64,000 bases of DNA, taken from Niastella vici. GTDB lineage: Bacteria; Bacteroidota; Bacteroidia; Chitinophagales; Chitinophagaceae. The stretch is taken from contig NZ_LVYD01000057.1 in assembly GCF_002077945.1 (NCBI RefSeq), forward strand, positions 1 through 64,000, written 5' to 3'. Positions 1,446 to 61,064 of this stretch are shown here, one piece after another. The translations under genes and the position numbers were made by a program. The notes beneath the pieces were generated by a model. The model was given only the letters and a program-made list of their open reading frames with translations, searched no databases and had not been told where the DNA came from. Every line of letters begins with the position of its first letter. Within the stretch, counting starts at the first letter, position 1.

Positions 1446-1877
1446 ATGGGTACGCTTCAACAAATTCAGCAGTGGAGCCTTACACACCATCCCCGTTGGC
1501 TCATTGTGTTGCGGGTAGCATTAGGGATCTGTCTCTTTTTTAAAGGCATCTTCTTTTTGGTAAATACGGCTACGTTGGAAGAACTGGTAAAAGGCAGCCT
1601 GGTTGCCAACCGCTCCGACTGGCTGGTAATTTTTATAACCTGGTCGCACCTGCTGGGAGGTTTTCTGATGATCATTGGCCTGCTCACCCGGTGGGCCGCA
1701 TTGCTGAATATTCCCATTTTGATGGGCGCCATTATTTTCATCAATACACAGCGGGATGCTTTTGGTGCTTTTGAGCTGCCATTTGCATTTATCGTATTGC
1801 TGTTGCTGATATTTTTCCTGATCGAAGGAGGCGGGCCCATTTCGCTCGACAACTTTTTCAGCAAGCACGAGGCGTGA
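1446..1877 (+). CDS. DoxX family membrane protein
   Basis: A 143-residue integral membrane protein with four hydrophobic segments (roughly residues 20-40, 58-78, 83-98 and 105-126). The layout, a first helix containing R-x-x-LG-x-x-FF-x-KG and a third containing LLTRWAALLN, is that of the DoxX/DoxD family. Family members are small inner-membrane proteins linked to quinone or sulfur redox chemistry, but this copy has no partner gene to say which. The gene ends KHEA-stop, and these last codons already belong to the heptad repeat array that fills the downstream spacer, so the C-terminus was probably reshaped by the repeat. It converges on queD. Confidence 0.85.
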   Translation: MGTLQQIQQWSLTHHPRWLIVLRVALGICLFFKGIFFLVNTATLEELVKGSLVANRSDWLVIFITWSHLLGGFLMIIGLLTRWAALLNIPILMGAIIFINTQRDAFGAFELPFAFIVLLLLIFFLIEGGGPISLDNFFSKHEA

Positions 1878-1970
1878 GGCACGAAGTATGAAGTACGAGG
1901 TATGAAGTAAGAAGAACCAGAATATTCCGGCCTTTGTCATACTTCTTACTTCCTATTTCTTACTTCATAT
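1864..1970. repeat. Heptad-arm palindrome, GAAGTAN family, copy 1
   Basis: The left arm is a run of 7-bp words (GCACGAG, GCGTGAG, GCACGAA, GTATGAA, GTACGAG, GTATGAA, GTAAGAA) that begins inside the last codons of the DoxX gene. The right arm at 1936-1970 is the inverted equivalent (TCTTACT, TCCTATT, TCTTACT). About 25 bp separate the arms. The RNA would fold into a long imperfect hairpin between two convergent genes. Confidence 0.75.
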
Positions 1971-1990
1971 TGTTGCGACATCAACACGTT

Positions 1991-2347
1991 CTATTCACCC
2001 TCATAGATGACACCCGAGGTAGGCGTTTCATGCAACTCAATGCGGTGCATGGCGGGCAGCGATGGCTTCAGTTGGTCCCAAATCCATACAGCGATCAGTT
2101 CGCAGGTAGGGTTTTGCAAACCGGGCAGATCGTTCATTAATTTATGATCGAGCTGGGTTACCACCGGTTTGATGATCTTTTTAAGTTCTGCGAAATCAAT
2201 GATCCAACCCAGTTGAGGATCGGGTTTGCCTTTCAGCCAAACGCGCAAACGGTAGGTATGACCATGAATGTTTTTACACTTATGCCCATCTGGCACATTA
2301 GGTAAAAAATGGGCTGAATCAAAGGTAAATTCTTTATAAAGCAGCAT
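1991..2347 (-). CDS. queD: 6-carboxytetrahydropterin synthase (QueD/PTPS family)
   Basis: A 118-residue enzyme of the 6-pyruvoyl-tetrahydropterin synthase family. It converts dihydroneopterin triphosphate to 6-carboxytetrahydropterin, the first committed step towards preQ0 and queuosine. The zinc ligands are visible as H13 (FDSAH) and H28/H30 (IHGHTY), the catalytic Cys is C24, and the LDHK and ELHET motifs are in place. The length is normal. queG, which acts at the end of the same pathway, lies 17 kb away in this window, which favours QueD over a biopterin role. A TAACTTTG -7 element lies 8 bp upstream of the ATG, so the mRNA may be leaderless. Confidence 0.92.
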   Translation of the reverse strand: MLLYKEFTFDSAHFLPNVPDGHKCKNIHGHTYRLRVWLKGKPDPQLGWIIDFAELKKIIKPVVTQLDHKLMNDLPGLQNPTCELIAVWIWDQLKPSLPAMHRIELHETPTSGVIYEGE

Positions 2348-2355
2348 AAGGCCCG

Positions 2356-2363
2356 CAAAGTTA
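2356..2363 (-). promoter_or_regulatory. Promoter -7 element for queD
   Basis: On the minus strand this reads TAACTTTG, an exact match to the Bacteroidota TAnnTTTG element. Only 8 bp separate it from the queD ATG, so transcription should start at or next to the start codon. Confidence 0.6.
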
Positions 2364-2429
2364 GGAAAGAATTGGGAGAAGCCACTGAGGAGGATCAGCC
2401 TGCCCGGAATTTGCGGTCAGCCAGGTTCT

Positions 2430-2825
2430 GCCCCGCCCCTCTGGGCCTACATTTATTATTTGCCCTGGACCTCTTACCTATGGGCCCGCATACACAATTC
2501 ACCATGGGCCTCTCACTTCTGGGCCAACTTTCATTATTTGCCATGAACCTCTTATCTCTGGGCCCATATTCATTATTCGCCATGAACGTCTTACCTCTGG
2601 GCCCGCATTCACCATTCACCATGGGCCGCTCACTTCTGGGCCAACTTTCATTATTTGCCATGAACCTCTTATCTCTGGGCCCATATTCATTATTCGCCAT
2701 GAACCTCTTACCTCTGGGCCCACATTCACAATTCACCATGGGCCGCTCACATTCATCATTCGCTATGATCTTCCCACTTCTGGGCCCGCATTCATCCTGG
2801 ACTTCTCGCCTTTGGGGCCCATATT
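2430..2825. repeat. 39-bp tandem repeat (minisatellite) with a 117-bp higher-order unit
   Basis: About ten units of 39 bp, each built round CTGGGCCCA and a CCATG-containing half (CACCATGGGCC or GCCATGAACCTC). Three units form a 117-bp higher-order repeat: the word GGGCCAACTTTCATTATTTG occurs at 2521 and again at 2638. Because 39 is divisible by 3, both strands have long open frames with 13-residue repeats, but neither frame has a credible start or domain. The minus-strand frame starts inside the terminator stem of the neighbouring gene. I regard the array as non-coding. Confidence 0.85.
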
Positions 2826-2831
2826 TGCCCA

Positions 2832-2868
2832 TAAAAAAAACCCCGGCAAACAAAGTTGCCAGGGTTTG
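2832..2868 (-). terminator. Rho-independent terminator of the DUF4382 gene
   Basis: Stem AACCCCGGCAA/TTGCCAGGGTT with one mismatch and a six-base loop, followed on the minus strand by a run of eight T. It lies about 20 bp after the stop of the leftward DUF4382 gene. Confidence 0.8.
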
Positions 2869-2889
2869 TATGGGTTTTTCGTGTTTAAC

Positions 2890-3747
2890 TTATTTATGCA
2901 GGGTAATTGTGCCAAGATCTGTTTCCTTGCCTACAGTTACCGATACATTGCTGATGGTTGTATCCTTGTAACCATTGCCGGCATTTACGAATACAGAATA
3001 AGTGCCTGAATTGAGCCCGCGTACTTTGAACTGGCCATCGCGCCATGGGAAGGCATAAGCCGTATCGGTTGCATTGTAAACAGAGATGATCGGATAGGCA
3101 TCATTTGGCTTAACGATACCTTTCACCGCACCCGATTCTTTAATAATGAAAGCCTTGATAAACGGCGCCAGGTAGAACGCGCCATCGCGCAGGCGAACAA
3201 TTGACCGGCCACAATCAAAATCAAGCCACAGCCTGTAGTGACCGCTCTGGAAATTGTCCCACTCATTACCAAACAATCTGATAGTGATGGTAGTTTGGTT
3301 ATTCAGCAGGTTCAGCGGATAAGAAACGCTATCCTTTACAATTGAGTTGTTGGTTCCAAGCGTAATAACAATTTTTCGGATAGTGCCGTCTGTTACAATA
3401 CCGCTACCCAGCAGGGTATCGATACCATTACGCAATGACAGCAGATCATATACACCGGGTTTTACCGCCAGTGAATCCCAAACAAAGCATTTCTTGGTGC
3501 TGTCCCAATTGTCCTGGCGTCTGCGGCTTCTGTCACAGGTATCAACCAATACCTTTACTGATTTAATATCGATCAGCACTTTGTCGAAAAAATCAGTTGG
3601 TCCGTCAGTAAGATAAAGGTTCAAACTTTGCTTACCTGAAGGCACAGATGAATTGTCGGAAGATTTTTCTTTAGAGCAGGCAAAAAAAATGATTGCTCCC
3701 ACGGCAACAACCATTACATACTTAAACAGGTTTCCCATTGATTTCAT
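2890..3747 (-). CDS. DUF4382 domain lipoprotein
   Basis: A 285-residue surface or periplasmic lipoprotein. The N-terminus is a classical Bacteroidota lipoprotein signal: a basic start, a hydrophobic run and a Cys in IFFACSKE at about residue 24. Residues 40-185 contain LNLYLTDGP and DKVLIDIKSVKV, characteristic of DUF4382. The last 80 residues (GAVKGIVKP to the end) look like a carboxypeptidase-regulatory/beta-sandwich module. No enzymatic motif is visible and the role is unknown. It has its own terminator. The second Met (residue 4) is an equally good start. Confidence 0.85.
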   Translation of the reverse strand: MKSMGNLFKYVMVVAVGAIIFFACSKEKSSDNSSVPSGKQSLNLYLTDGPTDFFDKVLIDIKSVKVLVDTCDRSRRRQDNWDSTKKCFVWDSLAVKPGVYDLLSLRNGIDTLLGSGIVTDGTIRKIVITLGTNNSIVKDSVSYPLNLLNNQTTITIRLFGNEWDNFQSGHYRLWLDFDCGRSIVRLRDGAFYLAPFIKAFIIKESGAVKGIVKPNDAYPIISVYNATDTAYAFPWRDGQFKVRGLNSGTYSVFVNAGNGYKDTTISNVSVTVGKETDLGTITLHK

Positions 3748-4143
3748 ACTTGCGTATTTAGTTGTGTTTAATCAAAAACATTTCACGAAAACTTTAACAA
3801 TTTTCATGCCTGTGTATTGAAAACAAACAACTTTAAATGTTGTTAACGACCCAACGCAATCATCCTATATACGTACACGCAGTTTCACTGATAAAATTCA
3901 CCCCGTTTCACTAAAAATTAACTACAACCCCATTAAACCTTCTGTAAAACGGGCAGTCTAACCCTTTTGCAATAAGCCCTGTTTTTATACTTTTTTAGTC
4001 CACCTTTTTTGTAGACTTAATAATTTGCTGTATCATTGTGATGAATTACACCACCATGCAACTATACTATTCAAAAGCCCGATGTTGATAAGGTATTAGC
4101 AGGCAGCTATACCATTTTCTTCAACTATTAAAAATATTGTCGC
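3748..4143. other. Divergent AT-rich intergenic region
   Basis: A 396-bp AT-rich spacer between two divergent exported-protein genes. It must hold both promoters, but I found no exact TAnnTTTG match, repeat or RNA structure that I would defend. Confidence 0.4.
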
Positions 4144-4467
4144 ATGAATCGCACTCATCGCAACAGCTGGCTGATTGCGTTGCCAGCCTTTATTTTGCAT
4201 ACATCAGAAATATATCCTGAACGCCCGCATACAATAACAGGAGCGGTCAGGAACAGCGCCACCGATAAGTATATAGAGAATGTATATATCTATATTACAT
4301 CGGGCGAAGAAGAAGCGTTATCGAACAATAAAGGGGCTTTTACCATTTCAACCTGGCAGGACCTTCCGGTAACACTTGTAATTGAACATCCAGTATATAA
4401 ACAAAAGAAGATCCGCATTACCGATGCATCACAATATCAACTTATAAAACTCGACCCAAAACAATAA
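4144..4467 (+). CDS. Small secreted carboxypeptidase-regulatory-like domain protein
   Basis: A 107-residue protein with a hydrophobic N-terminus (WLIALPAFIL) that may be a signal peptide. The rest (HTITGAVRN, then ALSNNKGAFTIST and a final beta-rich stretch) has the pattern of a single CarboxypepD_reg-like beta-sandwich, as found at the N-terminus of SusC proteins. No further domain follows. It sits 30 bp upstream of a sterol-desaturase-family gene and is probably co-transcribed with it. Function unknown. Confidence 0.7.
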   Translation: MNRTHRNSWLIALPAFILHTSEIYPERPHTITGAVRNSATDKYIENVYIYITSGEEEALSNNKGAFTISTWQDLPVTLVIEHPVYKQKKIRITDASQYQLIKLDPKQ

Positions 4468-4497
4468 AGTAATTATCCGCACCAATCTTTACCGGTT

Positions 4498-5721: not shown

Positions 5722-5733
5722 AATAAGTTCACG

Positions 5734-5804
5734 AGTTACGTGGCCGAGTGGCGAGGCAGAGGCCGGCAAACCCTCCTACGGTGGTTCGACTCCACCCGTA
5801 ACTG
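5734..5804 (+). tRNA. Degenerate tRNA-Cys(GCA)-like gene
   Basis: A cloverleaf can be drawn. The acceptor stem AGTTACG/CGTAACT is perfect, the D arm is GCC-loop-GGC, and the T arm GGTGG-TTCGACT-CCACC is perfect. The D-arm sequence GCCGAGTGGC-AGGCAGAG resembles Bacteroidota tRNA-Cys. The anticodon loop at 5764-5770 is CGGCAAA, giving anticodon GCA at 5766-5768. Three features are abnormal: position 33 is G instead of the near-universal U, the bottom pair of the anticodon stem is C-C, and the discriminator is G whereas tRNA-Cys normally has U. It is either a decayed tRNA-Cys or a diverged variant. Confidence 0.6.
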
Positions 5805-5880
5805 CTGTTTTTCATATGGCAAGCAATCATTCATTCATTCAGGGCGGTGTTTCTACACTGCCTTCTTTCTTTTTAGGCAT

Positions 5881-5904
5881 AAAAAAAGCTCCCTGGCGGG
5901 GGAG
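5881..5904 (-). terminator. Rho-independent terminator (minus strand)
   Basis: GCTCCC/GGGGAGC hairpin with a run of T on the minus strand. It lies downstream of the unexplained 6.2-6.5 kb block rather than of any recognised gene. Confidence 0.65.
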
Positions 5905-6548
5905 CATCTATGAACAGGCAATCGTTATAATTTTAATTGATAACCAAAGTTTCTTTTTTCTATTGAAAATAACAAGCGTTAGCAGGTATAAAGGCGCCAA
6001 AGAGGCCTCTCAAACGTAATATTAAAATTAAATACATGTATGTGTTTTAAATAGGCAATCGATTGTTTAAGCCTCAAAACGCCAGTTCGAACAATAAATT
6101 ATTCACATTATTTATTTTCACCCCTATTATTTCGAAAATTTTATTGCTTTTTAGTAAGGATTCTTAAAATCAAGAACCCTGAAAAAATATTTTAATTTTT
6201 TTTTTAAAATTATGCCCCGACATGGCGTTTTTGGGGTCCTTCGGCTCCGTTCAGGGTGCTTAGGGGGTAAAAGGGGATCAGGCTGGGGGTGGGCGCCAGT
6301 TACATGCTACATTGATGGAAAGCTGGCGCAGATGGTTGCGTAATGGTAGCCGCATTGTCAGAAACTGGCAGCCTGATGGCCGGGGTACTATACCGGTATT
6401 TTCCAGAGAACCTACAGGGACCCTAGTACGCGCCAGACAATACCCAGAGCATATCCCTACCATCTCCAGGCAATAACTCTACAGCCTGTCTACATATATC
6501 GCCCATCCGGGTGCATCCAGCACCATTTCTCGCGCACCCTTCGCTCAC

Positions 6549-11827: not shown

Positions 11828-12121
11828 ATGAAAACAGGAACCGTACTAACCGTGCTTTCCATTCCACTATTGATCTGCTGCACTACATTAAGCCCTGATC
11901 ATATAAAAGACCACCAGTGGTTATACGGAGGCGGGTACCGCATTGGCGATAAACTGCAGTTTGATAACAAGACCTTTAGTTTTCACGGTGATACCATTCT
12001 GAAAAGCGACCTGCCCGTTGCGGTTGTGGTAATGACCTCGGGCGATCTGTTAGGGAGCAATAATGATATTACCATTCAATCACTTGCCACGGGCGAAGAA
12101 GGGTTGTACCATGAGAAATAG
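11828..12121 (+). CDS. Small lipoprotein of unknown function
   Basis: A 97-residue protein with a lipoprotein signal (hydrophobic run ending PLLICC, Cys at about residue 18). The mature part, about 75 residues, contains GGGYRIGDKLQFDN and IQSLATGEEGLYHEK and looks beta-rich. I recognise no family. The octad repeat array downstream starts at its stop codon. Confidence 0.65.
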   Translation: MKTGTVLTVLSIPLLICCTTLSPDHIKDHQWLYGGGYRIGDKLQFDNKTFSFHGDTILKSDLPVAVVVMTSGDLLGSNNDITIQSLATGEEGLYHEK

Positions 12122-12203
12122 TTATTGAGTTTATTAGTTCGTAAGTTCATCAGTTAATCCCTGACAAGCGAACCAATAACTTAATAACATAATAACTCAA
12201 GAA
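12120..12203. repeat. Octad-arm palindrome, AGTTNNTN family, copy 1
   Basis: The left arm is a run of 8-bp words (AGTTATTG, AGTTTATT, AGTTCGTA, AGTTCATC, AGTTAATC) beginning at the stop codon of the lipoprotein gene. The right arm (AATAACTT, AATAACAT, AATAACTC) is its approximate inverse. The spacer between the arms is about 15 bp. Confidence 0.7.
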
Positions 12204-12328
12204 CCGGTAACCGATTCCAGTTCAATATCCTATCGCTATTAACAACCACTATTGTTAAATCCATGTATCCCCCTGTTCCGGGTATTGCAAAACCGGCCGG
12301 ATATCCTTATATTTAGTAGAGCAGATAT

Positions 12329-14639: not shown

Positions 14640-14724
14640 ATGGCAAGTTTTAGTTTAGTGTTTGTAACAATCGTTTTGCAAGGTTTAATCAATGGATGAT
14701 GGATAAATGGAGTGTCCTTAAAAT

Positions 14725-14890
14725 GAAGTAGGAAGTAAGAAGTAATTTCTGATTTTGAGATTTAGAGATCTTGTGATTTGCTCCGGTTTGAACTTTCCGA
14801 TAAATCTCAAAATCTCTAAATCCCGAAATCTCTAAATTCTTTACTTCCAACTTCCTACCTCTTACTTCTTACCTCCTGCCTCTTATTCTT
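14725..14890. repeat. Nested palindrome: GAAGTAN heptads outside, GATTTNGA octads inside
   Basis: The outer left arm is GAAGTAG, GAAGTAA, GAAGTAA (14725-14745). The outer right arm is the inverse heptads at about 14841-14888. Between them lies a second palindrome: octads GATTTTGA, GATTTAGA, GATCTTGT on the left (from 14751) and inverted AAATCTC-type octads on the right (to about 14838). It lies between xylA and the symporter gene. Confidence 0.8.
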
Positions 14891-24402: not shown

Positions 24403-24502
24403 TTCTTGATAGAGGTTGACAGCTACAGCAGGTAAACCGTTGCACAATTTTCAAAAACTATTAAAAAACAGAAAATATGGTGATTTTTAAATATAAGATA
24501 GC

Positions 24503-24645
24503 GAATGGTGAGTGGCCGGTGGTTAGTCGCCAGTTACCGGTTTTCGGTTCCCGGGCCTTTAATTACAGAATGCCCGCCTGAAATCAGCCTGTTATTAATT
24601 TGAGCCCGGCATCTGGTACTTGTAACCGGCAACTGATCTAAGAAC
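24503..24645. repeat. Heptad-arm palindrome with conserved core, GGTAACC family, copy 1
   Basis: The left arm is heptads (GCGAATG, GTGAGTG, GCCGGTG, GTTAGTC, GCCAGTT, ACCGGTT, TTCGGTT). A roughly 50-bp core runs from 24556 to 24605 and contains CAGAATGCCCGCCTGAAATC. The right arm has CTGGTAC, TTGTAAC and CGGCAAC. The core is shared with the copies at 33.3 and 35.8 kb. It lies between the divergent sigma-factor and bioA genes. Confidence 0.75.
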
Positions 24646-27347: not shown

Positions 27348-27452
27348 GCCTACAAACAATTAATAACTGAATAAATAAACCAGTCTATTTGTAGGCGCCA
27401 TCAGTCGCGAGTTGAATCGGGACGGTTCAAATAGGAAGACACCATTTCCTTT
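27348..27452 (-). promoter_or_regulatory. Fluoride riboswitch (crcB motif), probable translational control
   Basis: Read on the minus strand, the region contains the conserved aptamer parts in order: GGAAATGGTGTCTTCC (27434-27449), AACCG (27423-27427) and CTGATGGCGCCTAC (27391-27404). The aptamer's 3' end, GCCTACAAA (27388-27396), is exactly complementary to TTTGTAGGC (27348-27356), which ends one base before the ATG of the CLC-F gene. Without ligand, this pairing would bury the translation-start region. With fluoride, the aptamer would hold GCCTAC and free the start. The motif is seen; the switching model is inference. Confidence 0.87.
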
Positions 27453-27535
27453 GCGATGTAAAATAAGAAGGCTTTTTACTAATTGCCAAAAATTATTTTA
27501 TCCGCATTTGCCGGGAAAAAAGGTGCAGGAGGTTG

Positions 27536-33264: not shown

Positions 33265-33388
33265 TCGGGGTAGGTTGCCAGTTACCAGGTACCAGTTACC
33301 AGGTCTTAAATTAATTGCAGGTTGATTACAGGCAAACATTCCGCATCGTGGGCCTGGTATCCGGTAACCGGCAACCGGTACCAACAAA
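33265..33388. repeat. Heptad-arm palindrome with conserved core, GGTAACC family, copy 2 (inverted)
   Basis: The left arm is CCAGTTA, CCAGGTA, CCAGTTA, CCAGGTC; the right arm is GGTATCC, GGTAACC, GGCAACC, GGTACC. The core at about 33303-33353, read in reverse complement, contains GCGGAATG, GCCTGTAATCA and ATTAATTT, matching the cores of the copies at 24.5 and 35.8 kb. This copy is therefore inserted in the opposite orientation. Confidence 0.8.
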
Positions 33389-33423
33389 AAGAGCCATCCT
33401 TCGCTAACGCTCAGGACAGCTCC

Positions 33424-33496
33424 TTATAAGTTTTTTAGTTTTTAAGTTTGTTAGTTCTTTAGTTGGTTTGAAATTAACTAACAAACTAATTAACCA
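33424..33496. repeat. AGTT-word palindrome, copy 2
   Basis: The left arm has repeated TTAGTT/TAAGTT words with 7-9-bp spacing. The right arm (AACTAACAAACTAATTAACC) is its inverse. It sits immediately after the stop of the DUF2911 gene and could act as its transcription end signal. Confidence 0.65.
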
Positions 33497-34537: not shown

Positions 34538-34550
34538 AATGAAAATTTTT

Positions 34551-34648
34551 TGATTTTGGGATTTTTGGATTTCGCGATTTGAGATTGCGCTTGAGGCTTA
34601 TGATTAAATAAATCCCAAAATCTCTAAATCTCGAAATCAGAAATCTAT
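34551..34648. repeat. Octad-arm palindrome, GATTTNGA family, copy 2
   Basis: The left arm is octads GATTTTGG, GATTTTTG, GATTTCGC, GATTTGAG. The right arm is AAATCCCA, AAATCTCT, AAATCTCG, AAATCAGA. The loop is about 22 bp. It fills the spacer between the ABC permease stop and the SRPBCC start and touches the permease stop codon. Confidence 0.8.
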
Positions 34649-35773: not shown

Positions 35774-35933
35774 GCAATCGGCAAACGGCAATCGGCAAAG
35801 TTGCCGGTTACAAATTGCAGGTTACCAGTTTCCGGTTTCCGGTTACCAGGACTTTAATGCGGAATGACCGCCAATAATCAGGCTGTTCTAAATTTGCGCC
35901 CCGGCAACTGGTATCTGGCAACCGGTAACTGTT
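35774..35933. repeat. Heptad-arm palindrome with conserved core, GGTAACC family, copy 3
   Basis: The left arm begins with GGCAATC, GGCAAAC, GGCAATC, GGCAAAG and continues with GGTTACC, AGTTTCC, GGTTTCC, GGTTACC. The core at about 35852-35900 holds GCGGAATGACCGCC and AATCAGGCTGTT. The right arm is GGCAACT, GGTATCT, GGCAACC, GGTAACT. It ends at the stop of sppA. Confidence 0.85.
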
Positions 35934-35934
35934 T

Positions 35935-37689
35935 TTATTCTATCGTCATCTCAAACGGTAACCTCGCCTGCGTTACGCCCATCATTTGTTTCACCCGTTT
36001 AATGGTTTGGTAGGTTTTCATGCCATCTTCGCCCAATTCAGCCTTCATAGCCGAATGGGTGGCATCCTTCTCATAACTACCGAAGATCATTTCCAGCACA
36101 TTGTGTGGTTCGGGGTATTCCCGCAAACGGTAATCGCTTACCTTGGCCATGCGGGCGGCACAGGCAATGGCATCATCCAAACCGCCCAGGCGGTCAACCA
36201 GCCCCAGTTCTATGGCGCGGGCACCGGTCCATACCCGTCCCTGCCCAATGCTGTCGATATAGCCTACATTTTTTTTACGGCCTTCCGCCACTCTTTGTTT
36301 AAAGGTGAGATAGATGGAATCAACACTGTTTTGCATATAGATCCTTTGCGCCGGCGTTAACGGTTTGGTGGCAGATAACATGTCGGCCTGGGGCGCTGTT
36401 TTAACCCCATCGAAGGTGATGCCCAGCTTTTCGTTAAAAAATTTCTGCATATTCGGCAGCATGGTGAAAACCCCGATAGAACCGGTAATGGTATTGGTTT
36501 GGGCGAAAATGCTATCGGCATTGCACGAAAGATAATAAGCGCCGGAAGCGGCCACATCACCAAAGCTTACTACTACAGGTTTTGCTTTGCGGGCCAGGGA
36601 TAGTTCGCGCCAGATGTTCTCACTGGCCAGGGCGCTGCCCCCGCCCGAATTAATGCGCAGCACAATAGCTTTTATTTTGTCGTCGAGGCGGGCTTTACGC
36701 ACCAGCTCGCGATAAGTGGCGCTGCCAATCCTATCCCTGTCGCCTTTGCCATCGATGATATCGCCCTGGGCATAAATAACGGCGATCTTATCGCGGCCAT
36801 CGCGTTTATAGTCTACTGCATTAACGTATTTCTGCAGGGTAACAAAATTGATCTTGTCGAGCTTTATGCCGCCGAGCTTTTTGGCGATCTCTTCCTTTAC
36901 CTCGTCATCATATTTCAGGCCATCTATCAAATTATAGGTTACGGCATCGGCTGCCTGCTGAATGCGGTAGTCATTGGCGTATTGATGCAGCGTGGCCGTA
37001 TCGATCTTGCGTCTTTCGCCGGTTTGCTGTAACAAACGGCCATACATATCGCTCAGCAGCACCGATAACTGCAGCCGGTTGGCATCGGTCATGGATGTTT
37101 CCCTGAAAGGTTCCGTAGCGCTTTTGAATTTACCGGCATAAAAGATCTGCGGTTCTATTTCCAGCTTTTGCAGCAATCCTTTTACATAGGCCATCTGAAT
37201 GGCAAAACCCCGCCAGTCGACCCCACCCTTGGGATTGCAATATATTTTGTCGGCAACATTCCCTACCGAATAAGCGGTTTGGGTAATTACATCGCCATAC
37301 GCGTAAATGAACTTGCCTGAGGTCTTGAAGTTTATCAAAGCATTGCGGATCTCCTGGCTGTTGCCCATACCATTGGCATTGCTACTGCACTTGAGGTAAA
37401 TGCCTTTTATCGCCGTATCGGTTTTGGCATGGTTAATCAGCCGCACTACATCGTATAAGGATGGTATGTCACCATCTTCTTTATTACTCAGCCGGGCTAG
37501 CGGGTTCTCCACACCGATCTCGGGATAATCCCGGGCCAAATCGATCACCAATACGGCCGTGCCGCCGGTTTTCACCTTTTTGTCGGCGGTTAAACCGCTC
37601 ACAATACCCACCAAAACGAAAAAGATGATCAAACAAAACACCACCAATGCCACAAACGAGGCCAGGAATATTTTAAAAAAGCTCTTCAT
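35935..37689 (-). CDS. sppA: Signal peptide peptidase SppA, 67-kDa type
   Basis: A 584-residue inner-membrane serine protease that degrades cleaved signal peptides. One N-terminal helix (residues 4-30) is followed by two tandem S49 domains. The catalytic Lys lies in the first domain (NPKGGVDWRG), and the nucleophilic Ser in SGGGSALASENIW-x-E-L with the GDVAASGAYY segment of the second. The length is that of the long E. coli-type enzyme. ATG 37689 is preferred over the in-frame TTG at 37695. It is divergent from folK. Confidence 0.94.
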   Translation of the reverse strand: MKSFFKIFLASFVALVVFCLIIFFVLVGIVSGLTADKKVKTGGTAVLVIDLARDYPEIGVENPLARLSNKEDGDIPSLYDVVRLINHAKTDTAIKGIYLKCSSNANGMGNSQEIRNALINFKTSGKFIYAYGDVITQTAYSVGNVADKIYCNPKGGVDWRGFAIQMAYVKGLLQKLEIEPQIFYAGKFKSATEPFRETSMTDANRLQLSVLLSDMYGRLLQQTGERRKIDTATLHQYANDYRIQQAADAVTYNLIDGLKYDDEVKEEIAKKLGGIKLDKINFVTLQKYVNAVDYKRDGRDKIAVIYAQGDIIDGKGDRDRIGSATYRELVRKARLDDKIKAIVLRINSGGGSALASENIWRELSLARKAKPVVVSFGDVAASGAYYLSCNADSIFAQTNTITGSIGVFTMLPNMQKFFNEKLGITFDGVKTAPQADMLSATKPLTPAQRIYMQNSVDSIYLTFKQRVAEGRKKNVGYIDSIGQGRVWTGARAIELGLVDRLGGLDDAIACAARMAKVSDYRLREYPEPHNVLEMIFGSYEKDATHSAMKAELGEDGMKTYQTIKRVKQMMGVTQARLPFEMTIE

Positions 37690-38918: not shown

Positions 38919-38921
38919 AGT

Positions 38922-39551
38922 TCATTGCTTATTACTGCTCACCTTTTCCTCTTTTTTTACTGGTGGAACGGGCGCCTGTACTTTCGGCTTCACTACATTA
39001 TTATTATTGGCTGGCACAGCATGGTTGTTATTTTTGATAACAGGAACGACAGCATGATGGTTCCTGCCCATTTTAAAGGCCACATACAACAGGGACAGCG
39101 TAACAATAAATTGGATGAACGTGAGTGAATTGGAGATAACGTGTATGGCCGGACTGATCGCTTTTTTCATTTGCGATTCACTCATGGCCGACAGCGGTGG
39201 AAATACGCCGGAATCACCGAAATAAACTATCTCGGAAATGATCACCTGCTTATTGATAGTAGCAATCAGCAATATAAGAATGGAACCCGCTACAAGCATA
39301 ATGATGTTCGACGCTCTGCGGCTGAACTGATGTCTTATTTCCTTTACCAGGTAAATAAAAAAAGCGAAGAACACATACAACGGTAAAACAATTTTCCAGG
39401 AAGAAATGGTAAAGTAGGTCTCGTGCAGGCGAATGTCGAAATGATTGCTGAGGAAGGTCCAGCCAAAAAGAAATATGGTCACCAGAACGGTTGCGTTCAG
39501 AATAAGACCCAACCAGATCAGTTCAATGAGTACCGGCTTAAATTTTTGCAT
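38922..39551 (-). CDS. Four-helix membrane protein of unknown function
   Basis: A 209-residue membrane protein with hydrophobic helices at about residues 8-33, 52-68, 83-101 and 141-160, and a Pro/Lys/Asn-rich cytoplasmic tail. Between helices 1 and 2 is HFDIRLHETYFTIS (residues 37-50). It strikingly resembles the D-I-x-L-H-D-T-Y-F segment of cytochrome oxidase subunit I, but the later heme/copper histidines are missing and the protein is far too short. I do not assign an oxidase function. Confidence 0.75.
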   Translation of the reverse strand: MQKFKPVLIELIWLGLILNATVLVTIFLFGWTFLSNHFDIRLHETYFTISSWKIVLPLYVFFAFFIYLVKEIRHQFSRRASNIIMLVAGSILILLIATINKQVIISEIVYFGDSGVFPPLSAMSESQMKKAISPAIHVISNSLTFIQFIVTLSLLYVAFKMGRNHHAVVPVIKNNNHAVPANNNNVVKPKVQAPVPPVKKEEKVSSNKQ

Positions 39552-39659
39552 AGGTTAATCAGGCTTGTGTTAAATATAACAAAAATCATGCGATAAAAGC
39601 CTGCCATTAACCCCGCGCAAATATTATAAAAAATGAACACACATAATTAACCTGAGTAT

Positions 39660-40532
39660 CTAGCCAAACAGATCACTGCTCAGGTACCTGTCGCCCCGGT
39701 CGCAAACGATAAATACGATTACGCCTTTCGTAAGTTCCTTTGCCAGCCTCAGGGCAGCCGAAGCTGCTCCCCCACTGCTCATACCGGCAAAAACACCTTC
39801 CACTTTGGCCAGCTGCCGCGTCATAATGGTAGACTCCTGTTGCGATACATCAATGATACGGTCGACCCGGCTGGCATCAAAGATCTTTGGCAAATATTCC
39901 TTTGGCCAGCGGCGGATGCCTGGTATGGATGATTCTTCGGTGGGTTGACAACCCACGATCTGAATGGCCGGGTCCTTCTCCTTAAAGAACATGGAACACC
40001 CCATTATAGTACCGGTAGTACCCATGGAGCTTACAAAATGGGTGATCGTTTGATTGGTATCGCGCCATATTTCAGGGCCCGTGGTCTTATAATGCGCTTT
40101 GTAATTATCAGGGTTTGAAAACTGGTTCAGGATATGAAATTCACCGGTGGCTGCTTTTTCTTCCGCATAATCGCGGCATTTCTCAATACTTTCCAACAAT
40201 GTTACTTTGGCGCCAAACGCTTCCATCGTCAACGTTCTTTCGCGGGTTGAAGTGGAAGGCATCACCAGTTCTATATCAAGATTGAACAAACGGGCTACCA
40301 TCGCCAACGCAATGCCGGTGTTGCCGCTTGTTGCTTCAATTAATTTTGAACCTGGTTTAATTTCGCCCCTTTCCAATGCAGACCGTATCATGTTCAATGC
40401 AGGCCGGTCCTTCACACTACCACCGGGATTATTCCCTTCCAGCTTTGCATATATAGTGACATTCGGATTGGGATTGAGCTGCTTGATCTCTACCATCGGG
40501 GTATTGCCTACCAGGTCTATAATGCTTGCCAT
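39660..40532 (-). CDS. cysM: Cysteine synthase B (O-acetylserine sulfhydrylase)
   Basis: A 290-residue PLP enzyme that makes cysteine from O-acetylserine and a sulfur donor. It shows LEGNNPGGSVKDRPAL with the PLP lysine, the substrate loop EATSGNTGIALA, the phosphate-binding SSMGTTGTIMGC, and the C-terminal MSSGGAASAALRLA. The PGGSVKDRPA form and the length favour CysM over CysK. It is transcribed alone. Confidence 0.93.
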   Translation of the reverse strand: MASIIDLVGNTPMVEIKQLNPNPNVTIYAKLEGNNPGGSVKDRPALNMIRSALERGEIKPGSKLIEATSGNTGIALAMVARLFNLDIELVMPSTSTRERTLTMEAFGAKVTLLESIEKCRDYAEEKAATGEFHILNQFSNPDNYKAHYKTTGPEIWRDTNQTITHFVSSMGTTGTIMGCSMFFKEKDPAIQIVGCQPTEESSIPGIRRWPKEYLPKIFDASRVDRIIDVSQQESTIMTRQLAKVEGVFAGMSSGGAASAALRLAKELTKGVIVFIVCDRGDRYLSSDLFG

Positions 40533-40867
40533 TTTGAGTATTTAAACAGATTGTTGAAATTACCACTTTTATAATTTCCATATGTGTTCAACCGGAAACT
40601 ATTTATTCTATCAGTGTGATAGATTATAGCATTTTGCAGATCTCTCACGGCAGAAAAAACTTATATGTGGGATACAATCTTTACAATTACCGGAACAATT
40701 TGGTTCATTCAATGGACCTTAAATTTTCATTAGAATTTAATACGCTGGTTTAAAGCATAGTTACACACAGTTTTATACCGGTTGTACTTTATGCCGCTTT
40801 ACATATAAGCAATAACCTTTAATTTTGCGATCATTTTCACTTTAGCTGATCATCAAATTGTTATAGC
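40533..40867. other. Divergent promoter region between cysM and the MFS gene
   Basis: AT-rich spacer with an exact -7 element for the rightward MFS gene at 40820-40827. Otherwise I see no gene, repeat or RNA structure. Confidence 0.4.
40820..40827 (+). promoter_or_regulatory. Promoter -7 element for the MFS gene
   Basis: TAATTTTG, an exact TAnnTTTG match, 40 bp before the ATG, with TTTA about 19 bp further upstream as a possible -33 element. Confidence 0.55.
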
Positions 40868-42124
40868 ATGTCAACCGATCCTGGTACCAATAATCCTTCG
40901 AGCCCCTTTGTTTCATTGAGCGTTAAAGAATTTCGACTGTATATTATTCAACGGTTCTTTTTTATAATGGCCATGCGCATGATTGGCACCGTAACCTGGT
41001 GGAAAATGTACCAGATCACTAAAAGTCCGCTGGCATTGGCTTTTATCGGACTTTCAGAAGCCATTCCCGCCATTTCCCTGGCCCTGTATTCGGGCCATGT
41101 GGTCGACAAAAGCGACAAACGCACCCTGCTGTTCAGAAGCATCTTATTATATTTTTTGTGCGCGGCTGCCCTCATGTTCGTTACGTTGCAACACACCGAA
41201 GTAAGCCTGGGTAAACACTTCGTTCAGTTTGCTATTTACCTGGTAGTTTTTTGCACGGGCATTCTCAGGGCATTTTCGGGCCCGGCCTCCAGTTCCATAC
41301 TGGCGCAACTGGTGCCCAAAACTATTTTACCCAATGCAGTGACCTGGAGTTCAGGTACCTGGCTGTCAGCTTCTGTACTAGGACATGCTTCTGCCGGTTT
41401 CCTCATCGCCTATACCGGTTATACCGGCACTTTTATTTTGATCATGTCATATATGGCCATTGCAGGTATTGCCATGTACCAGGTAGACCGTAAACCTATT
41501 GCACATAGCAACAAGGAACAAAACACCTGGGACAGTGTAAAAGATGGGTTGCGCTATGTTTTCAATACAAAAGAATTGCTGGGCGCTTTTTCGGTCGATA
41601 TGTTTGCCGTATTGTTTGGCGGCGCGGTGGCCATGATCCCATTTTATGCCGGGGAGATCCTGCATGTGGGCGCCATCGGTTTTGGCTGGCTGAACGCGGC
41701 AGCCGATATTGGTTCCATCGGTATTATTCTCACCCTTACCTTTTACCCACTACGCAGAAAACAGGGACTTACTCTTATGTATGTGGTGGCTGGTTTTGGT
41801 CTCTGTATCATTACATTCGGGTTATCGAAAGTATACTGGATATCGTTCCTGGCATTGATGATGAGCGGTATGCTCGATGGCATCAGCGTAGTGATACGCG
41901 GTACCATTCTGCAATTAAAAACACCCGATGAAATGCGCGGCCGCGTATCATCGGTAAACTCCATGTTCATCAATTCCAGTAATGAGATCGGCAACTTTGA
42001 AAGTGGCGTTGCCGCTAAATTAATGGGCATCGTGCCGTCCGTGGTTTTCGGCGGCGCCATGACCTTACTGGTGGTAATGGTAATGTGGTTTAAGGCACCT
42101 ACGTTGAGAAAGTTTGAATACTAA
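40868..42124 (+). CDS. Major facilitator superfamily transporter (EntS-like exporter group)
   Basis: A 418-residue inner-membrane transporter with about 12 hydrophobic helices. The motif-A-like loop reads GHVVDKSDKRTLL (about residues 75-87), and LVPKTILPNAVTWSSGTWLSASVLGHASAG is characteristic of the MFS_3 group that includes the enterobactin exporter EntS. No siderophore genes are present, so the exported compound is unknown. Convergent with the DUF4242 gene through a heptad palindrome. Confidence 0.9.
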   Translation: MSTDPGTNNPSSPFVSLSVKEFRLYIIQRFFFIMAMRMIGTVTWWKMYQITKSPLALAFIGLSEAIPAISLALYSGHVVDKSDKRTLLFRSILLYFLCAAALMFVTLQHTEVSLGKHFVQFAIYLVVFCTGILRAFSGPASSSILAQLVPKTILPNAVTWSSGTWLSASVLGHASAGFLIAYTGYTGTFILIMSYMAIAGIAMYQVDRKPIAHSNKEQNTWDSVKDGLRYVFNTKELLGAFSVDMFAVLFGGAVAMIPFYAGEILHVGAIGFGWLNAAADIGSIGIILTLTFYPLRRKQGLTLMYVVAGFGLCIITFGLSKVYWISFLALMMSGMLDGISVVIRGTILQLKTPDEMRGRVSSVNSMFINSSNEIGNFESGVAAKLMGIVPSVVFGGAMTLLVVMVMWFKAPTLRKFEY

Positions 42125-42154: not shown

Positions 42155-42275
42155 GAAGTAAGAAGTAGGAAATAAGATGTAAGAAGGGGCTGAATGTCGA
42201 AGCTCATAATCAATCGCTATTTGTTACGAGTCTCGAATTTCGCGTACTTCCTACTTCATACCTCCTACTTCATAA
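42155..42275. repeat. Heptad-arm palindrome, GAAGTAN family, copy 3
   Basis: The left arm is GAAGTAA, GAAGTAG, GAAATAA, GATGTAA, GAAG (42155-42187). The right arm is inverse heptads at about 42242-42275. The core contains CTGAATG, TCGCTATTTGTT and CTCGAAT, in the same order as the reverse complement of the core at 53.08-53.13 kb. It sits between convergent genes. Confidence 0.85.
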
Positions 42276-46530: not shown

Positions 46531-47469
46531 ATGAACTCCCTGCGCGAACAAATATTGATTCTTACCAGTACGCCTATTTACGCGATCATTATCGGGTTGG
46601 AATTATTATTAAGCAATTACCATCACAAGAAATTATACAGCTGGAAAGATACCGCAGCCAATGTTTACCTGATGTTGCTGAATGCCCTGCTCGATCTGTT
46701 GTTTCGCGGGATTTATGTGGTGATCCTCGATTTCCTGTACCGCCACAGTATGTTCTCATTTAGTCATGTGGTGGTATACTGGGTAATGTTGTTATTGCTC
46801 GAAGATTTCATGTATTACTGGCTGCACCGCTTCGATCATGAGATCCGCTTTTTCTGGGCCGTGCATGTAACCCACCATTCATCGGAACATCTGAACTTTA
46901 CAGTTGGCTTCAGGTCGTCGGTATTTCAACCATTATACCGGTTCCTGTACTTCATTCCCCTGGCATTAATGGGCTTCAAGCCAATGGATATTGTGTTCAT
47001 TTATTCGGCCACACAGATCTGGGGTATTTTTGTACATACCAAACTGATCAATAAAATGGGCTGGCTCGAATACTTTCTGGTAACGCCCTCCCATCACCGG
47101 GTGCATCATGCTTCGAACCCCAAATACCTCGATAAGAACATGGGCATGTTCCTGATCATCTGGGACAAAATGTTTGGAACATTTCAACCCGAACTTACAG
47201 AGCAGGAATACCAACCTATTAAATTCGGGCTCACCAAACCCATTGAAAAGGAAACACCGCTTACGATCATCTTTCACGAATGGACACAGATGTGGAAAGA
47301 CGTAGCCCGTAAAGACATTGGCTTTAAAGAAAAATGGAACTATCTGTTCGGTCCGCCAGGCTGGAGCCACGACGGCAGCCGCCAAACCAGCGAGGAAATG
47401 CGGGCAGAAGAAAACGGCGGGGTACCCGCTGAGTTACAAGAGGAACGGGTTATAAGTTCAAAGTTCTAA
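46531..47469 (+). CDS. Sterol desaturase family protein, tandem copy 2
   Basis: A 312-residue paralogue of the preceding gene. Histidine clusters are HRFDH, HVTHH and HHRVHH, and the same tail signature LFGPPGWSHDGSRQTSEEM is present. The last codons (VISSKF-stop) are formed by the octad repeat AGTT array that continues into the spacer, so the C-terminal five or six residues are probably not functional sequence. The tandem pair looks like a duplication, and the copy at 4.5 kb is more distant. Confidence 0.92.
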   Translation: MNSLREQILILTSTPIYAIIIGLELLLSNYHHKKLYSWKDTAANVYLMLLNALLDLLFRGIYVVILDFLYRHSMFSFSHVVVYWVMLLLLEDFMYYWLHRFDHEIRFFWAVHVTHHSSEHLNFTVGFRSSVFQPLYRFLYFIPLALMGFKPMDIVFIYSATQIWGIFVHTKLINKMGWLEYFLVTPSHHRVHHASNPKYLDKNMGMFLIIWDKMFGTFQPELTEQEYQPIKFGLTKPIEKETPLTIIFHEWTQMWKDVARKDIGFKEKWNYLFGPPGWSHDGSRQTSEEMRAEENGGVPAELQEERVISSKF

Positions 47470-47561
47470 GTTATTAGTTTTTAGCTTGTTAGTTATTGGG
47501 TTGCGTTTCATCAGACTCACGAACTTAAAAAGGTACAAACTCAATAACTTATTAACTGCCA
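47449..47561. repeat. Octad-arm palindrome, AGTT family, copy 3
   Basis: The left arm consists of repeated AAGTT/TTAGTT words from 47452 to about 47512, starting inside the last codons of the desaturase gene. The right arm has GAACTTAA, CTCAATAACTTATTAAC. It lies at the 3' end of the tandem desaturases, upstream of gcvP. Confidence 0.7.
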
Positions 47562-53053: not shown

Positions 53054-53166
53054 AGAAGTAGGAAGTACGAAGTAGGAAGTTCCTGATATTCGGGGCTCAA
53101 ACAAATAGCGAGGCTCATCATTCAGACTTTTCTTACTTCTTACCTCCTACCTCCTATTTCTTCTTC
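53054..53166. repeat. Heptad-arm palindrome, GAAGTAN family, copy 4
   Basis: The left arm is GAAGTAG, GAAGTAC, GAAGTAG, GAAGT (53054-53080). The right arm is CTTACTT, CTTACCT, CCTACCT, CCTATTT (53130-53162), running over the stop codon of the convergent gene. The core, in reverse complement, matches the core at 42.19-42.24 kb (CTGAATG, TCGCTATTTGTT, CCGAAT). Confidence 0.85.
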
Positions 53167-54344: not shown

Positions 54345-54428
54345 GAAGTAAGAAATAAGATGTACGAGTAGGAAATACAAAATTCAAACTCTTCTTACCT
54401 CCTACATCTTACCTCCTGTTTCATCTCC
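54345..54428. repeat. Heptad-arm palindrome, GAAGTAN family, copy 5
   Basis: The left arm is GAAGTAA, GAAATAA, GATGTAC, GAGTAG, GAAATAC. The right arm (54390-54428) is CTTCTTACCTCCTACATCTTACCTCCTG. The loop is only about 10 bp, so it lacks the longer core of copies 3 and 4. It lies between convergent genes and ends next to the aldolase stop codon. Confidence 0.8.
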
Positions 54429-57138: not shown

Positions 57139-57260
57139 GGTACAAGCAATCTATCCATTCAGGTAAATGTATGGATAAATAGACAACAGGCAATAGACAA
57201 TTTGATTATTGCCTGTTGCCTGGTGACAGCTTAATACCCCTTTAATATTTTTTTAATCTT

Positions 57261-59183: not shown

Positions 59184-59486
59184 TTAACAATTTTTTTCAT
59201 TGAATAATTTTGGGGGCCAGCGTTTAATTCAATCAATCAAAACATTGAATAAATTTTAGCGGCAGGGTTTAATTCATTCAATCAAAAAAGTTTGACGTTA
59301 CTTTTTCTTCGTTCTCTGCGCAACGTTATATAACAATTATAATGGAAGAATATTAAGGGTTTCGTCGAAAAAATAGGGCAGTTCATCGATACTCATTCCA
59401 TGTTTAAGGAAATATTTCACTTTCATCCCAACCCTTCCTGATTATTTTTCGTAACTTCTTGGTTGTATTTTTAAAATCGCACATTT
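59184..59486. other. Divergent spacer with a short direct repeat
   Basis: Two imperfect copies of TTTAATTCAnTCAATCAAAA at about 59222 and 59267. A TATTTTTA just before the rightward ATG is one base from the -7 consensus. No gene is seen. Confidence 0.45.
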
Positions 59487-59927
59487 ATGAAAAAGCTTTT
59501 AATATGTGGGCTGTCGATCATGATGGCTATGAGTGTTTCGGCGCAATATCATGGCGGTTACTATTATGCAAGGCCAAGGATATCAATAGGGATCGGCGGG
59601 TATTTTCCTGTATATCCATACTATGGATATTCTCCATTTTATGGGTATCCTCCATTAGGTTATCCTTATGGATATGGTTATGGCTATCGCTATAACCGGC
59701 CTGCGCCTTCCAAACTCGATCTGCAAATACAGGAAATAAATAATGATTACAACCACCAGATCTGGGAGGTAAGGCACGACAAAAGCATAAAACGTAAAGA
59801 ACGGAAAAAGCAGATCCATGAGCTGGAACATGAAAGGGATAAAGCGATCATTCAGGCTAAAAAGTCTTATTATGAAAAGCCACCGCAGCCGGCGCGCCGC
59901 CATAACTTCAACTCAAATAACGACTGA
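59487..59927 (+). CDS. Exported Gly/Tyr-rich protein with charged C-terminal helix, paralogue 2
   Basis: A 146-residue protein. A signal peptide (to SVSAQ, residue 19) is followed by a Tyr/Gly/Pro-rich low-complexity stretch (YFPVYPYYGYSPFYGYPPLGYPYGYGYGY) and a charged helix, KLDLQIQEINNDYNHQIWEVRHDKSIKRKER ending IQAKKSYYEK, then an Asn-rich tail. The helix aligns residue by residue with that of the 53.8-kb gene. Function unknown. A GGGAT-word palindrome follows the stop. Confidence 0.82.
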   Translation: MKKLLICGLSIMMAMSVSAQYHGGYYYARPRISIGIGGYFPVYPYYGYSPFYGYPPLGYPYGYGYGYRYNRPAPSKLDLQIQEINNDYNHQIWEVRHDKSIKRKERKKQIHELEHERDKAIIQAKKSYYEKPPQPARRHNFNSNND

Positions 59928-59934
59928 GATTTTT

Positions 59935-60057
59935 GGGATCAATGGGATGAGTGGGATAATACACTATGCCACTCATCCTATCATCTCATGATCCCAAATC
60001 CCGCAATCCCTTCATCTCATCGATCCCCGATCCCAACCATCCCACACATCACACTAT
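59935..60057. repeat. Palindrome with GGGAT-word arms
   Basis: The left arm is 9-bp words GGGATCAAT, GGGATGAGT, GGGATAATA. The right arm has repeated ATCCCA, ATCCCG, ATCCCT and CATCTCAT words extending to about 60055. It lies between the Gly/Tyr-rich gene and the porin-like gene. Confidence 0.7.
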
Positions 60058-60180
60058 CCCAGTAGTTAAACGCTCGTTAACCGGGCATATTATTATTGCT
60101 ACTATCGTAACAATCTGCTTTTTTGTCTATTATTTACCGGCGTTGATAGATTATAACTTTTAACATGAAAGCCTGGTAAA

Positions 60181-60188
60181 TATTTTTG
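60181..60188 (+). promoter_or_regulatory. Promoter -7 element for the porin-like gene
   Basis: TATTTTTG, an exact TAnnTTTG match, 36 bp before ATG 60225, with TTTAAC about 20 bp further upstream. It overlaps the TTG at 60186, which argues against that codon as the start. Confidence 0.6.
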
Positions 60189-60224
60189 ACCGTCTCACAA
60201 CATCATTCAAAACACATTCATTAC

Positions 60225-60851
60225 ATGACAAGCAAGCCCTTTAACAAATTCCGTATTATGATGAAGTCTTTAATGGTATGCACTGCTTTGTTGGGAACAA
60301 CCTTTTTGGCAAAGGCGCAAACATGGCATTTTGGTCCCAAGTTCGATGCAAATTATTCTACGATGAAAGGAGAAGGAATAAAGAATAAATTTTCACCCGG
60401 CTTTCAAATTGGCGGTTTTGCTGAATATAACATCACTAAACACCTGGCCATTCAACCCGAGTTGTTATACTCCTGGAACTCTTATAAGAAGAGCGATGAT
60501 TTTTTAACTTATTACGTTAACTCAGGCCGTAGTGCTGCCGGCAATAATGTAAATCTGGGTACAGTGAGCGTGCCGTTGCTGTTGCGTTATAACATAAATA
60601 ACTTTCTCAGTGTGCTGGCCGGCCCTCAATACAGCTATAAGATATATGATGATGAAGACCTGATAAAAGAAGGTAAGGAAGCTTTTAAAAATTCTGAAGT
60701 AAGCGCCAATTTTGGTTTTCAGGTAAATTTGAGTAACGTTGGTTTTTATGCCCGCTTCAATAAAGGCCTTAATAATATAAATGATATTGATGATCGCTAC
60801 GAGTGGAAATCGAGTCACATACAGGTAGGTATCGCTGTTAGAATAAAATAA
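60225..60851 (+). CDS. Porin-like outer-membrane beta-barrel protein
   Basis: A 208-residue exported protein. ATG 60225 is used because the upstream TTG overlaps the promoter; Met at 60258 is an alternative that gives a tighter signal peptide (cleavage after FLAKAQ). The mature part is a small barrel: HFGPKFDANYSTMKG, FQIGGFAEYNITKHLAIQPELLYSW, VSVPLLLRYNINNFLSVLAGPQYSY and the final IQVGIAVRIK, a pattern shared with outer-membrane beta-barrel (OMP_b-brl) proteins of Bacteroidota. The ligand is unknown. Confidence 0.88.
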   Translation: MTSKPFNKFRIMMKSLMVCTALLGTTFLAKAQTWHFGPKFDANYSTMKGEGIKNKFSPGFQIGGFAEYNITKHLAIQPELLYSWNSYKKSDDFLTYYVNSGRSAAGNNVNLGTVSVPLLLRYNINNFLSVLAGPQYSYKIYDDEDLIKEGKEAFKNSEVSANFGFQVNLSNVGFYARFNKGLNNINDIDDRYEWKSSHIQVGIAVRIK

Positions 60852-60937
60852 TAAAGTGTGACCACTAGTTGCCAGGCAAAGGTGGGTCGTCGTAGCCCAT
60901 GACGCCCACACTTTGCACCGGCGAGAGTACGGAATAC

Positions 60938-61064
60938 ACAATGAGATGAGGTGATAATGCTTCAAGGTCGCGCAGTTCCTATAAATGCGATGCGCATGCG
61001 TTAGCATTCATTAAATGCGGTATTTCGTTATCACATTATCGAATTATCTTATTATCTAATTGAC
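60938..61064. repeat. Palindrome with TTATC-octad arm
   Basis: The right arm is octads TTATCACA, TTATCGAA, TTATCTTA, TTATCTAA (61028-61060), running up to the stop of the convergent OB-fold gene. The left arm is shorter (GAGATGAGGTGATAAT at about 60943). A related half-element, TGATAATTAGATAATTG, lies upstream of clpB at about 10169-10190. Confidence 0.65.

Follow-up and report, generated by a model that had tools for sequence, protein, structure and literature searches.

A 64,000-nucleotide window of Niastella vici (positions 1 to 64,000 of contig C57, NZ_LVYD01000057.1, in the 10.06-Mb genome G000) carries a set of intergenic palindromes whose arms are tandem arrays of short words, 14 of which had been listed in an earlier note made from the letters alone. 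Our analysis indicates that these palindromes probably belong to many families of small noncoding foldback elements, which spread by local copying and are tolerated, and perhaps used, at transcript ends. The unit would comprise about four words (7 or 8 bp each), a core specific to the family (typically ~20-65 bp) and about four inverted words.

Each listed site was compared with its own dinucleotide shuffles (1000 for periodicity at 7, 8 or 9 bp, 60 for the palindrome score). Periodicity rose above the shuffles at 14/14 sites (P 0.000-0.019), being weaker at 24.5 (P 0.019), 54.4 (P 0.007) and 60.0 kb (P 0.011), and the palindrome score exceeded all 60 shuffles at 12/14; the 33.45-kb palindrome was borderline (1/60), and at 61.0 kb the TTATCNNA array itself was real with an inverse arm that was not significant (6/60 shuffles). 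Within the window, a lag detector recorded 18 arrays with periods of 7, 8, 14 or 16, including several outside the listed sites, against no array at all in 18 of 20 window shuffles and one each in the other two. The arrays extended well beyond the window: the pattern GAAGTANGAAGTANGAAGTA (at most one mismatch, overlapping matches counted) had 509 matches in the genome versus 13 for the reversed pattern, and the syntenic region of nine congeners held 119 arrays in 180.5 kb (62 of period 7, 26 of period 8; none after shuffling), a higher density per kb than in our sample of the N. vici genome. That sample of 464 kb (the window plus 20 fixed-position 20-kb stretches, coding sequence included) yielded 82 arrays (34 of period 7, 19 of period 8, 11 of period 11, four of period 14, two of period 16, one of period 9 and 11 of other periods, each represented at most three times), compared with three in a control of one shuffle per stretch; its noncoding part alone yielded 63 (28 of period 7, 17 of period 8, ten of period 11, four of period 14, two of period 16 and two others). 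An inverted partner lay within 160 bp of 39/57, 33/107 and 26/81 arrays in three sets, and of 0, 0 and 1 with shuffled flanks. These data showed that the class is real, that shuffled sequence does not produce it at this frequency and that it is not peculiar to the window.

The word lengths of 7-9 bp first proposed hold for 7 and 8 bp; words of 9 bp are rare (60.0 kb is the sole such site in the window, and 1/82 arrays in the 464 kb had this period). When noncoding arrays from the N. vici, congeneric and G003 sets were pooled, 223/253 had period 7, 8, 14 or 16, 21/253 period 11 and 5/253 period 9. The arrays of 11-bp period (for example L074 14489-14627, L087 15697-16308 and L068 185-239) may represent a third word length. 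The proposal of several unrelated word families with one shared architecture was borne out, and this architecture spreads beyond the window and the genus: arrays resembling these are found sporadically within the family, in other Bacteroidota and at two cyanobacterial loci. Far outside the genus we noted an 8-bp-word palindrome in a Saprospiraceae metagenome-assembled genome (L136 3261-3917) and a 7-bp-word palindrome in the cyanobacterium Nostoc sp. (L181 7254-7880); elsewhere, a GGTAACC-type element itself forms a tandem series of at least six copies spaced 88 bp apart (L088 18-493).

The GAAGTA family gave the clearest picture of a unit. With the 42.2-kb element as BLAST query, copies elsewhere aligned through the core, and a query with the core alone found 17 matches in the N. 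vici genome, 15 of them at E 0.002 or better (hereafter the core copies). The copies share a core of ~60 bp and the phase of the words, in a unit of ~125 bp: 14/15 core copies could be aligned with a common phase and about four words per side, beyond which similarity ends, and the flanks are unrelated save for one pair (L226/L228, 68%). The arms thus travel together with the core, and their order was GAAGTA...TACTTC in 46/47 elements found by regular expression. Searches of nine congeners (one of them, G007, 61% complete) gave no match to this core at E 0.001, GAAGTA words themselves being present there; since it was found in 1/10 Niastella genomes, the core looks recent as judged from these assemblies. 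At two loci the arms have expanded to ~75 and ~100 words (G000:C24:288919-289442, L026-L030; G000:C43:299089-299801, L048). Repeated or similar cores were also seen in other families. A single core common to all families was ruled out, there being essentially no cross-family similarity at E 0.01 (the 47 "different-arm" pairs in this comparison were mostly same-family or nested, and the remainder marginal). The view that the palindromes do not descend from one element therefore stands as far as the families are mutually unrelated, and fails within the GAAGTA family, whose copies share core, phase and arms that move with the core.

Copies of an element tend to lie near one another. Among the 15 core copies, 10 pairs (L226/L228 included) were separated by no more than 25 kb, against 0.53 expected, a number reached in 0/20,000 simulations, and 12/15 had a neighbour within this distance. 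Same-word pairs within 20-kb stretches were likewise in excess in the congener G003 (23 vs 12.2 expected, P 0.0012), where two convergent gene-end spacers ~3 kb apart share 104 bp in inverted orientation with one mismatch, 96 bp of it exact. In N. vici, two GATTT elements (L091) 1.6 kb apart are identical over 56 bp and differ in their 5' arms.

Consistently with the placement at 3' ends and between convergent genes noted earlier, arrays occupied 13/54 convergent, 18/169 tandem and 3/61 divergent spacers in N. vici, and 28/39, 31/60 and 2/46, respectively, in the congeners (spacer classes from greedy open reading frame calling). Among 43 GAAGTA elements, 15 were in convergent, 25 in tandem and two in divergent spacers, one having no called left neighbour, and they often lay 5-40 bp from a stop codon. 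At several orthologous 3'-end spacers, occupancy was retained and the occupant changed. Word arrays were present in 8/8 genomes at the convergent spacer at 53.0 kb (at least four families there), in 4/6 at that at 54.2 kb, and in 6/6 and 7/8 at the tandem spacers at 34.5 and 35.8 kb, as compared with 2/46 genome-spacers for five divergent spacers. Between G001 and G004 (85% identity) the GATTT family was kept at 53.0 kb with its arrays rewritten. Families thus replace one another at gene-3'-end spacers as species diverge. Genome rearrangement may be a further effect of the elements: a segment of 3.2 kb in the window (38919-42124) is inverted relative to 8/8 comparable congeners and spans two convergent spacers, each arrayed in at least G002, G003 and G004. 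Judged by eye in the six congeners where these end spacers were readable, the two arrays match in type in G003 and G004 and differ in type in G002, and the near-identical inverted copies of G003 described above sit in the two spacers that match the breakpoints.

To compare the two arms of an element, words facing each other across the core of GAAGTA elements were set against words swapped between copies, by identity and by folding energy. The two innermost facing words were less complementary than swapped ones (identity 0.779 vs 0.809, z -3.3; three words, z -2.8; four, z -1.3), and folding energies for two, three and four words agreed (z +3.2, +3.2 and +2.2), real hairpins being ~1.5-2.4 kcal/mol less stable than those with swapped arms. 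The loci used (L001-L060) had been picked by arm regularity, a possible selection effect, and the test was repeated on core-selected copies, with z -1.9 (two words, n = 14), -2.3 (three words, n = 13, P 0.005) and -1.4 (four words, n = 7), the word register being possibly off by one in some copies. No G-U preference was seen at facing words of GAAGTA elements. An origin of one arm as the mirror copy of the other was ruled out, as facing words pair worse than swapped ones; the same result speaks against selection for strong hairpins. Near-perfect palindromes are unstable in bacteria, and the deficit in facing complementarity fits such instability as its putative cause.

Neither process that had been suggested for making or maintaining the palindromes is supported by this test. 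In-place slippage with inversion, without mobile units, might account for arrays that vary in length by whole words and for the two arrays of ~75-100 words, and in most genomes 7-bp arrays outnumber every other class of long simple repeats (Mrazek 2007, as cited in PMC4679880). However, cores are conserved at unlinked sites, 46/47 elements have one arm order, the arms are not mirror copies (identity z -3.3, energy z +3.2) and period-8 families are common as well; since the core is shared, this explanation is largely refuted for the GAAGTA family, and overall we regard it as highly improbable. The same facing-word result speaks against long RNA hairpins selected for the strength of their stems. 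It is also very unlikely that an RNA- or DNA-binding protein recognises the arrays, as has been suggested for TAACTGA repeats: 4/7 word positions are nearly invariant in core-selected copies (GA..TA., the other three being variable), but a single genome holds many unrelated word families, and these replace one another at orthologous sites.

A related explanation, in which the palindromes act at RNA 3' ends as terminators or stability hairpins and are selected for structure with their sequence left free, would fit their position behind stop codons and the occupation of orthologous spacers by different families. It would also fit the distribution of canonical terminators, which were rarer in arrayed than in other spacers, both convergent (12/51 vs 29/67, P 0.032) and tandem (3/76 vs 34/236, P 0.013), when the N. 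vici, congeneric and G003 sets were pooled, the congeneric spacers in this pool not being independent of each other. Moreover, G001 and G005 lack the conserved terminator of the 54.3-kb site and have in its place a GAAGTA hairpin with 6-7 T immediately behind it, and several cores enclose a terminator-like hairpin (elements L016, L023, L062, L202, L217 and L218). Against this, the weaker pairing of facing words is the reverse of what selected stems should show, T runs behind GAAGTA hairpins were not clearly enriched (8/53 vs 3/53 upstream), and convergent spacers of G003 alone showed no terminator difference (6/15 arrayed vs 8/22). Insertion into terminators predicts an equal anti-association, substitution for a terminator and insertional damage are indistinguishable here, and a 3'-end device requires neither a core conserved throughout a family nor clustering. 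We consider this explanation unlikely, although the palindromes may have some role at transcript ends, because arrays and canonical terminators avoid each other in the pooled data.

A candidate enzyme for copying is encoded by the single PF01797 gene of N. vici (L239 2865-3293; G000:C46:19865-20290), which lies between genes for a DAHP synthase/chorismate mutase and a 3-dehydroquinate synthase (Pfam) and occurs once in 10/10 Niastella genomes, at 87-91% identity to the N. vici copy. The Y1 motifs HMH and Y---Q--HH were seen in 9/10 of these genomes (in the tenth, another frame was read). The account in PMC6006769 gives Y---Q--HH as the signature of Y1 HUH subclass 1.2, a low-copy group generally described there as lacking insertion sequence ends and found mostly in Cyanobacteria and Bacteroidetes, which are also the phyla of the heptad repeats reported in PMC4679880. 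A word palindrome occupies the spacer preceding the Y1 gene in 9/10 Niastella genomes (G009 being without), with ATT[GC]ACC-type words in six and the related ATTGCCG/ATTCACG in three. Across 45 other genomes of the family, noncoding 7/8-bp arrays numbered 48 in 705 kb from the 28 genomes with PF01797 and 4 in 427 kb from the 17 without it (Mann-Whitney P 0.014; Spearman 0.45, P 0.002), statistics that ignore phylogeny and include many contigs chosen through carrying a Y1 gene. That the word palindromes are mobilised in trans by a subclass 1.2 Y1 HUH transposase, in the way proposed for REPINs and their RAYTs, is on this evidence a tentative possibility, and several observations make it doubtful. 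Outside the genus, arrays lay within 1.5 kb of 5/10 Y1 orthologues in the same aro slot, and of only 2/30 other related Y1 loci (27/30 of which carry the signature); a word palindrome is clearly present in G086, a draft genome with no Y1 gene; and in 13/28 genomes with a Y1 gene the sampled sequence lacked noncoding arrays. One gene would also have to serve many word families, and the GT[AG]G tag was absent from the foot of the hairpins (18/222 feet vs 11.5 at shifted positions, among 111 elements of which some are listed twice); subclasses 2.6 and 3, as PMC6006769 presents them, lack this tag too. The link between Y1 and palindromes is thus a lead, with mixed evidence from genome comparison for a candidate enzyme. 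It is quite unlikely, in our estimate, that orphan subclass 1.2 Y1 proteins of Bacteroidota and Cyanobacteria, domesticated in Niastella as one gene within the aro operon, copy word-armed hairpins, which would be a hitherto unrecognised type of mobile DNA, by reading hairpin geometry with a 7- or 8-bp beat and not a fixed tag, tolerating many words and supplying interchangeable transcript ends.

For the preferred reading, that of small foldback elements copied locally, we envisage the following course. Duplicative copying would place new copies largely in spacers within ~25 kb, as the observed clustering and near-identical neighbours suggest, the act and its enzyme being what we infer from them. 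The likeliest type of mechanism would be the copying of a single-stranded hairpin at the replication fork, carried out either by a trans-acting Y1 HUH protein or through switches of template from one array to another. Copies would persist just behind stop codons, where a small insertion presumably harms least, and gene-3'-end spacers would fill up, with the observed replacement of one family by another over species divergence. Arms would later gain or lose words, probably by slippage, up to the expansions of ~75 and ~100 words found at two loci, and facing words that pair too well would be lost or never fixed, in the manner of unstable near-perfect palindromes, leaving the deficit measured here. 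At some loci the element embraces or replaces a terminator in the sequence, and might take over its function.

Several observations weigh against this reading. An inverted partner was detectable for just 98/245 arrays (1 with shuffled flanks); therefore many arrays are one-armed or decayed. Same-word clustering over all families was not significant in N. vici (12 vs 8.6, P 0.16), and gene conversion between existing arrays could explain part of the clustering. Flanks showed no target duplication (8/111 pairs share at least 5 nt vs 10.3 expected), so that an insertion step is not demonstrated, and no clean empty site was seen among the genomes compared, which do not include a closely related strain. 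Three tandem 3'-end spacers lack arrays (34010, 0/4; 39552, 0/9; 46466, 0/9), and the limits of the unit and its core were worked out for the GAAGTA family alone.

The sites in the window are collected in the table. The 14.8-kb site proved to consist of two nested families, a detail beyond the earlier note; its inner core resembles the cores of other GATTT elements, with a similar core in G004 (L064 397-473) and in L091. An extra short word-like palindrome, absent from the original list, lies at 57181-57221, and a 39-bp tandem repeat of ~8 copies at 2438-2740. Rfam covariance models at gathering score gave no match at the palindromes, the only matches in the window being a class A RNase P RNA (61804-62241, minus strand) and a fluoride riboswitch (27385-27458, minus strand).

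Table. Word palindromes and related features of the 64,000-nucleotide window
Feature	Positions	Strand	Remarks
GAAGTAN (7-bp) palindrome in a convergent spacer	1883..1969	.	arms 28 bp, 86% complementary; shuffles 0/60
AGTTNNTN (8-bp) word palindrome	12121..12204	.	above all 60 shuffles as a palindrome
Nested palindrome, GAAGTAN arms outside and GATTTNGA (8-bp) arms inside	14720..14888	.	
GGTTACC-type (7-bp) palindrome	24501..24639	.	weakest periodicity of the set, P 0.019; palindrome 0/60
CCAGTTA/GGTAACC (7-bp) palindrome	33273..33384	.	core akin to the 35.8-kb core (E 0.008, 70%)
AGTTNNTN (8-bp) palindrome, borderline	33423..33496	.	1/60 shuffles
GATTTNGA (8-bp) palindrome	34544..34645	.	orthologous spacer with word arrays in 6/6 genomes, several families
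GGTTACC-type (7-bp) palindrome adjoining an AATCGGC array	35796..35935	.	
Segment inverted relative to 8/8 comparable congeners	38919..42124	.	a convergent-gene spacer at either end
GAAGTAN palindrome with the 60-bp family core	42155..42274	.	at one end of the genome-specific inversion
AGTT-type palindrome, 3' of a gene	47448..47560	.	
GAAGTAN palindrome with the family core	53055..53160	.	orthologous convergent spacer arrayed in 8/8 genomes, at least 4 families
GAAGTAN palindrome downstream of a conserved intrinsic terminator	54345..54422	.	
GGGATNNNN (9-bp) degenerate palindrome	59924..60066	.	single 9-bp case in the window
TTATCNNA (8-bp) array	61017..61060	.	inverse arm not significant

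The elements share features with several known systems. Eukaryotic foldback (FB) transposons also have long inverted arms made of short tandem subrepeats, but they are larger and use different enzymes. The small dispersed repeats of Nostoc (Elhai, 2008) are reportedly tiny elements, often found inside heptameric arrays and with nested copies; unlike the present units, they are said to measure 21-27 nt, and arms are not described as part of them. The target-site duplication of miniature inverted-repeat transposable elements (MITEs) of the DDE type was not found here, shared flanks being at chance level as given above. Full-text literature searches yielded, among the titles and opening lines of abstracts listed, no description of inverted word-arm elements in Bacteroidota, which is not proof of absence.

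Closer comparisons are offered by repetitive extragenic palindromic (REP) sequences and by heptad repeats. Elements of the REPIN type, which are small hairpins, are associated with Y1 genes present in one copy (PMC3116915), and GTAG- and CGTC-tagged REPs have been surveyed (PMC3733652). Together with their RAYTs (TnpA-REP), REPs and REPINs are described as small, extragenic, family-specific hairpins of inverted units around a spacer, in many copies and supposedly moved in trans by a Y1 HUH protein (PMC3116915, PMC6006769). The elements reported here likewise have an inverted pair around a spacer, form a hairpin and are dispersed extragenically; they differ in their tandem arms of 7/8-bp words, the missing GT[AG]G tag, the strong 3'-end bias and the local clustering (REP doublets being reported as randomly placed extragenically), and they were seen beside the Y1 gene in some groups of loci and seldom in others. 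Heptad arrays are known from Cyanobacteria, Beggiatoaceae and a few Bacteroidetes (PMC4679880), and the cyanobacterial short tandemly repeated repetitive (STRR) or heptameric repeats and the TAACTGA repeats resemble our elements in their 7-bp words in spacers and in mixed heptamers. The TAACTGA sets of PMC4679880 are described as direct (169 such sets, against one indirect repeat, in BOGUAY) and as lying for the most part a short way 5' of start codons, unlike the inverted arms, cores, 8-bp families and 3' ends found here. Degenerate 7-bp tandem words in spacers are thus common to both, and direct arrays alone are not, given the inverted partners of 98/245 arrays. The elements combine features of heptad arrays and of REPINs, without the fixed tag of the latter or the exclusively direct arrays of the former.

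If this account is true, a large share of the gene ends of a bacterial genus would consist of competing tiny hairpin families that swap at the same places. The 7-/8-bp beat (223/253 noncoding arrays, doubles counted) and the deficit in facing complementarity set quantitative constraints on any mechanism, and three questions would become jointly testable: how 3' ends evolve, where the heptad repeats of Bacteroidota and Cyanobacteria come from, and what an orphan subclass of HUH nucleases does.

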